From the NCBI RefSeq assembly GCF_000243155.2, contig NC_018017.1, forward strand, positions 3,906,001-3,970,000: DNA of 64,000 bases, written 5' to 3'. The DNA comes from Desulfitobacterium dehalogenans ATCC 51507 (lineage in GTDB: Bacteria; Bacillota; Desulfitobacteriia; Desulfitobacteriales; Desulfitobacteriaceae). The notes under the pieces are model-generated. The model was not told the origin of the DNA. It searched no databases and was given only the letters and a program-made list of their open reading frames with translations. A program made the position numbers and the translations under genes. Below are positions 10,506 to 63,693 of this stretch, piece after piece. Numbering within the stretch: position 1 is the first letter of the stretch; each line of letters begins with the position of its first letter.

Positions 10506-10725
10506 CTATGATACGTTGTATTATTTTATATATTATTCGGTATCCTTCGATAAATTCCTACATTGGGAAAAAAAGAACTTTGTGACTAAAAAAAACTTTC
10601 TGATTTTACCCCATTTATTAGCATTTTCAGATTAGCATTTAGGGTTTTAAGTTTCTTATAAGTTTTAGGATAGCTATTCATGCCGCTGGCGGCACCGGCA
10701 GAGGAATAAAAAACGGCTCGGGTCA

Positions 10726-10970
10726 CGTAGCTTTACGCACAACGTTTACTCTATAGCTCCGGGGCTGGTCAACTCGCTTTCTTAACAGCTACGCCAAACC
10801 CCGCTGCTTTCTGTATGTGAACCGGTGGCTGCGCTACGTTAAGAAAGCTTTCGTTAACCCGACCGCCCCTCCGCTTAAAGAAAGCTTGGCTTATGGTGAG
10901 TGAAGCGAAGCAGAAGACTTAGCTGCCTTATACACAGTGAAATCCGTTCACTTTTGTGCGTAAAGCTACG
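10726..10970 (+). repeat. Module A of R1
   Basis: Closed by a perfect 17-base inverted repeat (10726-10742 with 10954-10970, core GTAGCTTTACGCACA). A second stem inside is GCTTTCTTAAC (10776-10786) with GTTAAGAAAGC (10838-10848). Just outside it, CGGGGC and GCCCC arms also pair. Confidence 0.8.
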
Positions 10971-11073
10971 CTTGCGGGTCTTTTTCAGCTCTGTTTTCGG
11001 GCTTTAGCACCAGCAGAGGATGAAAAAGCTTGTTTGGATCGGGTAGCAGCACCGCTCAGACCCGAAAGACAGC

Positions 11074-11310
11074 CCAAGGATTTTGCTTTAAGGTAGGGAA
11101 CGAATTTAAGCGAGCAGGTAAGCAATCTTCGCTAAAAGACTGCAGCGGAGTCGGGTTGGAAACAGGACGTTTCCAACCGGCTATGAGAACAAGTGCGAAA
11201 GCAGTGCTTTCGAGGAGCCGATTTAGCCGGGAACCCGACGCAGTGGAGGTCTTGAGCGATTAGATTGCTCCGCGCAGCTTATGGAGTGAGCGCCGAAAGC
11301 AAAATCTTGG
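11074..11310 (+). repeat. Module B of R1
   Basis: Outer arms CCAAGGATTTTGCTTT (11074-11089) and AAAGCAAAATCTTGG (11296-11310). Inside are GCAATCT/AGATTGC (11122, 11262), AAGAC/GTCTT (11136, 11249) and GTCGGGTT/AACCCGAC (11150, 11232). Next is a hairpin with perfect 10-bp arms (11154-11163, 11169-11178; loop AGGAC), then a GGCTA/TAGCC hairpin (11179, 11224). Confidence 0.8.
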
Positions 11311-11520
11311 AGAATCAGCTTTCAGGTCTTTTTCAGGGTAGCCCCCCCATGCCGCAAGCGGCATCGGCAGAGGATGAAACGTGGTCCTCCGGAATTATAA
11401 AGATTAATTAACTACCCTCTTCCCCATGCAATATGATATAATTTTTACACAAGTAAGAATTATTAAACAAAATCGAGCAATGATATCGAACAAACGATCT
11501 GAATTTGTGAGGTAGAAAAT

Positions 11521-27091: not shown

Positions 27092-27209
27092 AGTATTTTC
27101 TCCTCTCTCAATCTTGGTTGGTTTTTGGATCTTTTGGGGGCTTCATTTGGGATCTTTGCTGGGGTCGTTCTATCTCTTTATTGGGGTCACTGCTCTTTAT
27201 TTGGGTCAG
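27092..27209. repeat. Degenerate short tandem repeat upstream of fadE
   Basis: Between 27130 and 27209 the phrase TTTGGGGTC / TTTGGGTC recurs four or five times, spaced by CT-rich bases (for example CTTTATTGGGGTCACTG, CTCTTTATTTGGGTCAG). It abuts repeat R2. It may be a relic of element insertion. Confidence 0.4.
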
Positions 27210-27388
27210 GTAGCTTTTCGCACATCATTCACTCATTAGCTCCAGGGCTGGCGCTCCCGCTTTCGCAGCAACTCCGCCAAACCTCAGGGTAATACCTGAA
27301 GTGAACCATGGCTCCGCTACCGCTACGAAAGCTTTGTTCGCCTGAACGCCCTTCCGCTAAAATCGTTCATTCTTGTGCGAAAAGCTAC
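27210..27388 (+). repeat. Module A of R2
   Basis: Outer arms GTAGCTTTTCGCACA (27210-27224) and TGTGCGAAAAGCTAC (27374-27388) differ from the other copies by one A:T to T:A swap on both sides. The inner arms are GCTTTCGCAGC (27259-27269) and GCTACGAAAGC (27322-27332). The loop holds a CCTCAGG-type hairpin. Confidence 0.8.
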
Positions 27389-27496
27389 GCTTATTCTGCA
27401 TGTAAGATCAGGTAATTCTTTGAAGTCTAAGCTGAGGCGGGAAACCTGTCTTCCCGTCTTCCTATCTTCCTATCCCACCGTATCGCAAAAGAAGAC

Positions 27497-27715
27497 CCAA
27501 GGATTTTGCTTGACAGTAGAGAACGGCTTCTAAGCGAGCAGTTAACCGTTCTTCGCGAAGAGCTTACAGCGGAGTCGGGTTGGAAACAGGACGTTTCCAA
27601 CCCGCTAGAGAGCCAAGGATGGCGATTTAGCGGGGAACCCGACGGAGCTGAAAGCTTGAGCGATTAGAACGGGTACGCGCAGCTTATAGAGTGAACGGGG
27701 CAAGCAAAATCCTGG
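27497..27715 (+). repeat. Module B of R2
   Basis: Arms TTTTGCTTG (27504-27512) and CAAGCAAAA (27701-27709). Inside are CCGTTCT/AGAACGG (27546, 27666), GAGCT/AGCTT (27560, 27653), GTCGGGTT/AACCCGAC (27574, 27636) and CGCTA/TAGCG (27603, 27628). The central hairpin with loop AGGAC is unchanged from other copies. Confidence 0.8.
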
Positions 27716-27737
27716 AGAACGCTCGTGAACAGTGGCC

Positions 27738-36355: not shown

Positions 36356-36410
36356 GCCGGATGCAGCTTGGGCGGCACCGGTAGAGGACGAAAAGTGTTG
36401 TCTGGGTCAT

Positions 36411-36674
36411 GTAGCTTTACGCACAACGAACCTTCGGGCGTGAGCTCCTGAAACCCTCCACCGGAGGCTTTCTTCATCGGAGCACACGTACTCCATAGCT
36501 CCAGAGCTGGTTAACTCGCTTTCTTAACAGCATCTGCAGCGGATAAGAACCCTTTGGGGTGTGCCGCTTTGAGCGAAACTGTCCACCGGACACTTTCGTC
36601 GCCAAACCTTTGAGCAGAAAGCCTTAGCTGCCTTATACACAGTGAAAGCCGTTCCCTCTTGTGCGTAAAGCTAC
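36411..36674 (+). repeat. Module A of R3
   Basis: Outer arms GTAGCTTTACGCACAA (36411-36426) and TTGTGCGTAAAGCTAC (36659-36674). It contains an inserted palindrome with arms CGTGAGCTCC (36439-36448) and GGAGCACACG (36479-36488), and the left inner arm GCTTTCTTAAC without its partner. Confidence 0.75.
36531..36598 (-). repeat. Double-hairpin mini-element (in module A of R3)
   Basis: 68 bases; read on the minus strand it goes CGAAA-stem-TTTCG, CTCAA, AGCGG...CCGCT, GCAGATG. It replaces a 5-base loop present in R1, giving a clear insertion relative to the empty site. It is nearly identical to the copy at 63424-63491. Confidence 0.75.
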
Positions 36675-36745
36675 GCTTGCGAGTCTTTTCGTGTCCTTTC
36701 TGGGGTCATTCTTTTCATCTGCAACCCCCAAGCCCGAAAGACAGG

Positions 36746-37045
36746 CCAAGGATTTTGCTTTAAGGCAGAGAACGGATTCTAAGCGAGCAGGTAAGCAATC
36801 TTCGCGAAAAGACTGCAGCGGAGTCGGGTTGGAAACAGGACGTTTCCAACCGGCTATGAGAACAAGTGCGAAAGCAGTGCTTTCGAGGAGCCGATTTAGC
36901 CACGAAACCCGGGCGAGGGTTTCGCCCAAGCCGCCACCCCACAGAGACTACTTAGCGGCGCAGGTGCACCCGGCGCAGCGGAGGTCTTGAGCGATTAGAT
37001 TGCTCCGCACAGCTTATAGAGTGAACGCCGAAAGCAAAATCCTGG
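36746..37045 (+). repeat. Module B of R3
   Basis: Outer arms CCAAGGATTTTGCTTT (36746-36761) and AAAGCAAAATCCTGG (37031-37045). It is 63 bases longer than B of R1, the difference being one mini-element between the GGCTA/TAGCC hairpin and the CCCG right arm. Confidence 0.8.
36903..36966 (+). repeat. Double-hairpin mini-element (in module B of R3)
   Basis: 64 bases: CGAAACCC/GGGTTTCG hairpin, CCCAA, GCCGC...GCGGC hairpin, GCAGGTG. It is absent at the same place in R1 and R2, and present in R4. Confidence 0.75.
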
Positions 37046-37151
37046 AGATTCAGCCTTCAGGCTTTTGCTGCATAGCCGGATACCATCAGCGATAGGGAAA
37101 ATTGAGATACTAAATAAATGGGTTCACCAACCCATGAGAGGGGTAGCATCG

Positions 37152-54827: not shown

Positions 54828-54864
54828 ACGCCTGTCCTTAAGTTTCTAACTTAAGGACAGGCGT
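54828..54864 (-). terminator. T-box-controlled terminator
   Basis: The stem has 17-base perfect arms (ACGCCTGTCCTTAAGTT side and its complement) and a 3-base loop, followed by TTTTT. It lies between the T-box sequence and trpX and is the off switch of the riboswitch. Confidence 0.9.
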
Positions 54865-55085
54865 ATAAACCTGCGGTACCACCTTAATTGATGCATGAAA
54901 TAAACCATACATCCTCTCTTGCAGGGTGCCATCACACCCTTAGCCCAGTAACGCTGGCTATGCGTCGTAAGCTACTCATTGCTTTTCGCTCCGCCCTCAG
55001 GGGCCCATTTACTCGCTCCGTTACCTGCCAGGCTTCCACCTTCCCCGGCTCTCTTTAAGGCTGGTCTTGCGGTTTTACTTCCCCA
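54828..55085 (-). promoter_or_regulatory. T-box riboswitch sensing tRNA-Trp, controlling the trpXYZ-type operon
   Basis: On the minus strand the T-box sequence AGGTGGTACCGC lies at 54873-54884, followed by the terminator. Stem I contains AGAGAGCCGG and GGTGGAAG. The specifier loop reads AAATGGGCCCCTGAG, with TGG at 55005-55007 in the codon position. TGG is tryptophan. Uncharged tRNA-Trp would stabilise the antiterminator and permit transcription. The specifier call rests on alignment with known T-box stem I layout from memory. Confidence 0.88.
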
Positions 55086-55140
55086 TCAACAGTTTAGAAC
55101 AGTTTAGCATATTATTTTCCAGGAATCAATAGAGATTTAT

Positions 55141-62827: not shown

Positions 62828-62860
62828 AAGCCAGCCCTCTTAATTTAAGAGGGCTGGCTT
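62828..62860 (+). terminator. Terminator of the regulator gene
   Basis: The stem has perfect 16-base arms with a single-base loop (AAGCCAGCCCTCTTAA and its complement). TTTT follows on the plus strand. Confidence 0.9.
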
Positions 62861-62895
62861 TTTGCTATGCTGAAAAAGGCCCGAAAGCTGAATCT

Positions 62896-63171
62896 CCAGG
62901 ATTTTGCTTTCGGCGTTCACTCTATAAGCTGCGCGGAGCAATCTAATCGCGAAAGACCTCCGCTGCGTCGGGTGCACCTGCGCCGCTAAGTAGTCTCTGT
63001 GGGGTGGCGGCTTGGGCGAAACCCTCGCCCGGGTTTCGTGGCTAAATCGGCTCCTGCCTCATAGCCGGTTGGAAACGTCCTGTTTCCAACCCGACTCCGC
63101 TGCAATCTTTCGCGAAGATTGCTTACCTGCTCACTTAGAATCCGTTCTCTGCCTTAAAGCAAAATCCTTGG
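62896..63171 (-). repeat. Module B of R4
   Basis: Outer arms CCAGGATTTTGCTTT (62896-62910) and AAAGCAAAATCCTTGG (63156-63171). The right inner stem is CGCGAAAGA/TCTTTCGCG, replacing the imperfect pair of R1 and R3. The GGCTA/TAGCC hairpin is shortened. Confidence 0.8.
62975..63038 (-). repeat. Double-hairpin mini-element (in module B of R4)
   Basis: 64 bases, identical in length and nearly in sequence to the copy in B of R3, at the same insertion point. Confidence 0.75.
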
Positions 63172-63423
63172 GCTGTCTTTCGGGTCTGAGCAGTGCAACT
63201 CTTTCGAAAAGACCCAAAAGAAGGGCCAACAAAGACGCGCAAGCGTAGCTTTACGCACAGGAGCGAACGGCTTTCACTGTGTATAAGGCAGCTAAGGCTT
63301 CTGCTTCGCTTCACTCACCATAAGCCAAGCTTTCTTTAAGCGGAAGGGCGGCCAGGTCAACGGGGCTTTCTTAACTTAGACGAGCCACCGGTTCACCTCA
63401 GGTATTACCCGGAGGTTTGGCTC

Positions 63424-63491
63424 CGAAAGTGTCCGGTGGACAGTTTCGCTCAAAGCGGCACACCCCAGAGAGTACTTATCCGCTGCAGATG
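63424..63491 (+). repeat. Double-hairpin mini-element (first in module A of R4)
   Basis: 68 bases, matching the copy at 36531-36598 in R3. Second stem is AGCGG/CCGCT, where the other type has GCCGC/GCGGC. Confidence 0.75.
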
Positions 63492-63564
63492 CTGTTAAGA
63501 AAGCGAGTGAACCAGCCCTGGAGCTATAGAGTACGTGAGCTCCGATGAAGAAAGCCTCCGGTGA

Positions 63565-63633
63565 CGAAACCATCCAGTGAATGGTTTCGCCCAAGCCGCC
63601 CTAGCCACAAAGATGAACTAAGCGGCGCAGGTG
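63565..63633 (+). repeat. Double-hairpin mini-element (second in module A of R4)
   Basis: 69 bases with first stem CGAAACCAT/ATGGTTTCG and second stem GCCGC/GCGGC. R3 has the host palindrome without this insertion at the matching point (near 36456), giving an empty site for comparison. Confidence 0.75.
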
Positions 63634-63693
63634 GGTTTCAGGAGCTCACGCCCGAAGGTTCGTTGTGCGTAAAGCTACGCGACCCGAGCAAAT

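Follow-up and report, generated by a model that had tools for sequence, protein, structure and literature searches.

A clade-restricted repeat of inverted foldback units with putatively mobile hairpin inserts in Desulfitobacterium dehalogenans

Four long non-coding repeats, R1 to R4, were found in the window, i.e. the 64 000-nt stretch of DNA analysed here (bases 3,906,001-3,970,000 of the 4,321,753-bp genome). They are members of a multi-copy, apparently undescribed family and are best filed as copies of a clade-restricted, non-coding interspersed repeat, a large BIME-like mosaic with mobile hairpin inserts. The explanation preferred here, which is given a little better than an even chance, is a repeat of inverted foldback units whose loops tolerate such inserts. 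Two modules, A (fold on the minus strand) and B (fold on the plus strand), would be joined and edged by REP-like C palindromes and would work as single-stranded folds, of either RNA or DNA. Short self-contained hairpin units (P, M, S1 and S2) would be accepted at their loops and helix ends. An exposed loop of the folded single strand would take up a hairpin unit, after which short-tract recombination between paralogues would carry the filled or empty state from copy to copy.

Anatomy of the four repeats

Whole elements and modules were delimited from BLAST clusters and profile matches. The usual module order is C-A-C-B-C. Module A (~200 nt) and module B (~242 nt) each form a single long foldback with branches, so that units span ~200-240 nt, and their terminal inverted repeats are long (GTAGCTTTACGCACAA/TTGTGCGTAAAGCTAC). 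The REP-like C palindrome, which often starts with GTAG, sits beside and between the modules and at both edges; in R1 it is found on the plus strand at the left edge (10679-10694, CATGCCGC...GCGGCA) and again at the right edge (11348-11363). This palindrome has many copies; possibly it forms a repeat family of its own, or the large element uses it as a target.

R1 (10688-11343, plus strand) consists of module A at 10717-10978, with the 64-bp insert S1 at 10876-10939, and module B at 11060-11323, with the 24-bp hairpin S2 at 11188-11211. R2 (27150-27725, plus strand; A 27201-27393, B 27486-27723) carries no insert. R3 (36370-37090, plus strand) has lost part of its module-A backbone by internal deletion (A 36401-36683); this module contains P at 36429-36488, empty of M3, and the 67-bp mini-element M1 at 36532-36598. 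Its module B (36733-37057) contains S2 at 36861-36884 and the mini-element M2 at 36902-36965. R4 lies on the minus strand (62860-63690). Its module A (63236-63688) holds S1 at 63275-63338, M1 at 63424-63490 and P at 63534-63660, the last made of a palindrome (63534-63650) plus a mini-hairpin, CCTTCGGG, and filled with M3. Its module B (62883-63185) holds M2 at 62976-63039, in an orientation relative to the element opposite to that of M1 and M3.

An earlier note on this DNA had described the R4 palindrome as enclosing a mini-element at 63565-63633. This was borne out, with an exact span of 63565-63632 (M3, 68 bp, 5'-ACCTGCG...TTTCG-3' on the minus strand). By direct reading and exact matching, the palindrome arms on the minus strand are CGTGAGCTCC at 63534-63543 and GGAGCTCACG at 63641-63650. 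The same palindrome without the mini-element is indeed present in R3 at 36439-36488, with one arm mismatch (GGAGCACACG). It is absent from R1, as noted, and R2 likewise lacks both palindrome and M3. The mini-element that the note placed in module B of R3 and R4, and not of R1 and R2, is M2, a relative of M3. In R3, module B exceeds its R1 counterpart by ~61 nt rather than the 63 claimed (325 versus 264 nt, profile match). The note had missed S2 in R1 and R3, S1 in R1 and R4, M1 in R3 and R4, and the loss of backbone in R3.

Distribution and genomic setting

Searches with R4, R1 and R2 gave at least 69 copy clusters in the own genome. The module-B hairpin motif was counted 72 times there, 49 times in the sampled genome G002, 16 times in G003, 13 times in G010 and 4 times in G009. 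The repeats were found in Desulfitobacterium, Desulfosporosinus and related genera, and were confined to the Desulfitobacteriaceae within a 398-genome sample of the phylum, in which the motif had no match outside this family. Across ~85,000 species, none was found except in Desulfosporosinus and two MAGs. Plasmid and phage searches returned zero matches. The repeats are intergenic. According to simple ORF calls, their orientation to flanking genes is even (23 versus 25); 15 lie between convergent genes and only three of 68 between divergent genes.

No Rfam 15 family matched the element at the gathering threshold: R4 gave nothing at E<=5, R1 gave weak sub-threshold matches only, and permissive thresholds brought nothing useful. 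The open-access literature, to which the search was confined, yielded no account of these repeats in Desulfitobacterium or Desulfosporosinus. Elsewhere in the window, a T-box leader (Rfam RF00230) was detected at the gathering threshold on the minus strand at 54850-55098.

Strand-specific folding of the modules

In the consensus folds, at least two Watson-Crick types occur in 26 of the 72 shared pairs of B and in 15 of the 48 of A. The folded strand was examined by counting one-sided changes as G-U versus A-C, within the subset of pairs predicted for both strands. In B, G-U outnumbered A-C (56:26, p 0.001), and in A the ratio was reversed (17:73, p 2e-9). Simple mutation bias does not explain this skew, because the transition bias of unpaired columns is opposite to that of paired columns. 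In relatives, the skew of A was repeated (12:40, p 1e-4) and that of B had the same sign only (100:76, p 0.08). Judged by covariation and this skew, the plus strand appears to be the one on which B folds, and the minus strand that of A; either RNA or single-stranded DNA would fit.

The reverse complement of A contains a short core colinear with B (GAACGGATTnTAAGCG...GCTTATGGAGTGAnCG); the best BLAST pair had an E value of ~0.003 and profile scores were weak. Inverted B-/B+ pairs occur in G003 and G009. Together, the shared core and these pairs suggest that the units form a single family arranged as inverted pairs, BIME/REPIN-like, with a weakly indicated common origin of A and B.

On the folded strand, the loops are rich in purines and in GGA (plus-strand GGA 10 versus TCC 3 in B, 0 versus 6 in A). 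One near-invariant hairpin of module B, conserved across genera, has an AGGAC loop (ACAGGACGU; motif GGTTGGAAACAGGACGTTTCCAACC in R1, genome 3917154-3917178) that recalls the CsrA-type GGA loop. The GGA-rich loop motif AACAGGACGUU may be a CsrA-like candidate.

Optional inserts and their junctions

Six optional inserts were distinguished (P, M1, M2, M3, S1 and S2). Five of them use backbone sites: A@28 (P, 58 bp), A@74 (M1), A@160 (S1), B@130 (S2) and B@146 (M2). M3 sits within P. M1, M2 and M3 represent variants of a single mini-element, 5'-AYCTGCG...TTTCG-3'. Among 57 copies of module A, P was present in 11, M3 in two, M1 in nine and S1 in 20; among 67 copies of module B, S2 was present in 26 and M2 in 24. 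Insert-free copies (30/57 for A, 34/67 for B) are the commonest state in the own genome. Lengths fall into discrete classes, for A 198-200, 256-258, 262-266, 322-329 nt and upwards, and for B 240-244, 265-268, 305-307 and 329-332 nt. The inserts are not due to chance, because they recur across many copies and give these discrete classes.

Alignment of filled and empty copies showed exact additions, with at most a few bases exchanged. The S2 junction changes from TTGAG|CAGGAG to TTGAG[24 nt]GAGGAG, the M2 junction from GATTTAGCC|GGGNACCCGAC to GATTTAGCC[M2]GGTNACCCGAC and the P junction from ACAACG|CNNACTCC to ACAACG[P]CGTACTCC. As the earlier note had stated, there is no obvious target duplication: none of 3 bp or more was seen at P, M1, M2, M3 or S2, and an AAA beside S1 is ambiguous. 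The alignment of copies that it had proposed did place the insertions precisely at apical loops and helix ends of the folds. A statistical preference for loops did not emerge (not significant), as ~80% of all positions are within 2 nt of an unpaired base.

These junctions bear on the idea that the repeats are ordinary MITEs of a DDE transposase, bounded by terminal inverted repeats and inserted into one another. The long terminal inverted repeats of the modules would suit it, as would the AGTAGG found on both flanks of one whole element (270,072), whose site is empty in G002. R3 is similarly flanked by GCCGGAT on both sides. Both sequences could be real target duplications; since both overlap the C unit's own sequence, a duplication is indistinguishable there from a shared target motif. 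At other whole elements, the sites of relatives are too diverged for target duplications to be read. The ends of whole elements are ragged, the inserts other than S1 have no duplication of 3 bp or more, and inert double-stranded MITEs would not be expected to covary in a strand-specific way. The DDE origin is thus considered quite improbable.

Mobility and history of the inserts

In the own genome, M was located at A@74, at B@146, within P and in another long hairpin, immediately 3' of a 5S rRNA gene (225,654, within genome 225100-226300). The hairpin motif CGAAACCN-TCCACCGGA-NGGTTTCG that holds M at 225,654 also holds M3 in P. At B@146, M is inverted in G010 and G017 relative to the own genome, and in G010 the inverted copy replaced seven bases. 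One copy in G003 carries P at both A@28 and A@171. M and P are probably separately mobile, judging from the sequences compared, because M occupies several unrelated sites, one of them in both orientations in different genera, and P two sites in a single copy.

The insertion of hairpins inside hairpins, as read in the earlier note, was recovered (M3 in P, in R4 and in a copy at genome 1,153,235), and the order P then M3 is clear. A simple layered record, which it had also seen, did not hold. All 10 pairs among P, M1, S1, S2 and M2 showed all four combinations of presence and absence in 52 complete elements, so a single ordered growth series is not supported and inserts are freely mixed. Carriers were scattered on the backbone trees (quick trees of little resolution), with at least nine changes for the 11 carriers of P and at least 17 for the 20 carriers of S1. 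S2 was both present and absent in each of four compensated stem backgrounds (GCCC/GGGC, GGCT/AGCC, GGCC/GGCC and AGCC/GGCT). States also differ at orthologous loci: S1 is missing from R2 and present in its G003 orthologue, and P, absent from the copy at 3,043,838, is present in the G002 orthologue of that copy. The mixing could reflect recurrent insertion at fixed sites instead of recombination.

An alternative reading is that nothing transposes at present and that the inserts are ancient optional peripheral helices, polymorphic among paralogues and shuffled only by gene conversion and slippage, with their gains and losses arising through recombination. The four combinations, the scattered carriers, the use of identical insert sites in several genera and the module B of a different stem subtype carried by the G002 orthologue of R4 all agree with this. 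The reversed M at B@146 in other genera, the second site of P and the copy of M near 5S rRNA, which lies in neither A nor B, do not. Conversion tracts would, moreover, have to stay within ~10 nt either side of S2, because the flanking compensated stem arms stay matched. Shuffling without current transposition is possible, though on the unlikely side.

The uninserted state is common in every sampled genome, and it matches the module-B copies of G009 and most of those of G010. Derivation of R1 from R4 by deletion, which the earlier note had set against its own reading, is unlikely because the uninserted form is the commonest in the own genome and matches the form in other genera. More generally, R1 and R2 could be deletion derivatives of a fuller, R4-like ancestor, and module A of R3 does contain a genuine internal deletion. 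Uninserted copies have, however, mutually consistent junctions in all sampled genomes, and exact excision would be needed dozens of times. Such an ancestry is highly improbable.

The occupancy of whole-element sites differs between genomes. In G002 the sites of R1 and R3 are unoccupied, and the R4 site contains, besides the other-subtype module B, a stub of A. G003 has an element at the site of R2 and none at those of R3 and R4. Unoccupied orthologous sites hold unrelated sequence. One of them in G002 (2,742,268) may hold element remnants, which would also agree with the deletion of copies, and loss of elements is thus possible.

Relation to known systems

By analogy, the family would work most like a cross between BIMEs/REPINs and the GC clusters of yeast mitochondria, which undergo shuffling. 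BIMEs and REPINs are REP palindromes in inverted pairs, associated with RAYT (PMC2817692, PMC3116915, PMC3733652). The repeats resemble them in their inverted pairs of foldback units, high copy number, intergenic position and rarity between divergent genes, the often GTAG-like start of the C palindrome and strand-specific G-T pairing. One of these papers, which mentions neither Firmicutes nor Desulfitobacterium, reports REP dimers placed inside longer palindromes (PMC3733652). The units here differ in being branched, covarying and ~200-450 nt long instead of 20-40 bp, in containing optional mobile hairpins, and in the lack of an intact Y1/RAYT gene in the own genome. Palindromic GC clusters of yeast mitochondria have a 42-nt unit and an AG target, and are similar as short hairpin units that proliferate intergenically, keep their fold, merge and are shuffled (PMC4478555). 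They differ in being mitochondrial and in having no large covarying host unit. The BOX elements of pneumococci are modular boxA-boxB-boxC mosaics. Nested hairpin insertion is not known in them. They are also much shorter than the present elements and are not inverted pairs of branched folds; the likeness is that of small interspersed repeats of a Gram-positive chromosome (PMC3049150).

It is commonly assumed that large structured nucleic acids grew through the addition of helices at loops. In this family, filled and empty states can be paired dozens of times, within one genome and between genera, and the stems around the insert covary, which opens this growth to direct study. The repeats also point to a system of mobile hairpins in organohalide-respiring bacteria, with no mobilizing enzyme found. 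A further reading, that of a mobile non-coding class in which a large strand-specific fold takes independent mobile hairpin domains into its loops, grows in complexity in this way and is moved by a single-strand route, is doubtful; if true, it would be a present-day case of structured nucleic acids assembled through hairpin-into-hairpin insertion.

Search for a transposase

The earlier note had pointed to single-strand transposition, i.e. inserts moved in trans by HUH Y1 enzymes of the IS200/IS605 type. Non-autonomous (PATE-like) elements of this type share with the inserts the lack of target duplication, the hairpin ends and the strand-specific single-strand folding. In the own genome, Y1 (PF01797) is represented by two near-identical IS200-like copies, both broken (3340137-3340490 and 3415479-3415831). 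None was found in G003, although G003 carries the elements, and TnpB was found in none of the own genome, G002, G003 and G009. TnpB and Y1 families were rejected as carriers, being absent or broken in most element-rich genomes. Intact Y1/RAYT-like genes of 256-261 aa occurred only in G001 and G002, on contigs matching the R3 flank, and argue for the HUH route. The gene of G002 (G002:C8:99096-99431) is ~1 kb from the site orthologous to that of R3, and that of G001 lies at G001:C477:9166-9498. The same search found no Y1/RAYT gene at the corresponding place in the own genome. A, B, C, M, P and S1 showed no match to Y1 loci longer than 12 nt (11-12 nt at most).

On the folded strand, M has one orientation at all three own-genome sites, which counts in favour of this route. 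As a general rule, a single orientation on the folded strand was discarded, since it is broken by the inverted M of G010 and G017. On that strand, the sequence 5' of M differs from copy to copy (GGCGA, GGTGA, GCCA, GGTGT, GGCTC), and no fixed tetra- or pentanucleotide target was found across the flanks of M1, M2, M3 and the 225,654 copy. Unlike the IS200/IS605-type elements, the inserts are thus accompanied by no intact TnpA or TnpB in the own genome, have no fixed target tetranucleotide and vary in orientation at one site. The absence of a clear target duplication stands in favour of the earlier proposal, which is nevertheless unproven and, on these grounds, unlikely. In G014, which has many TnpB genes, M-like hairpins (L106, L147) adjoin GAGACTCCCACTTCTACAAGTGGGAG hairpins that recall IS605/TnpB right ends.
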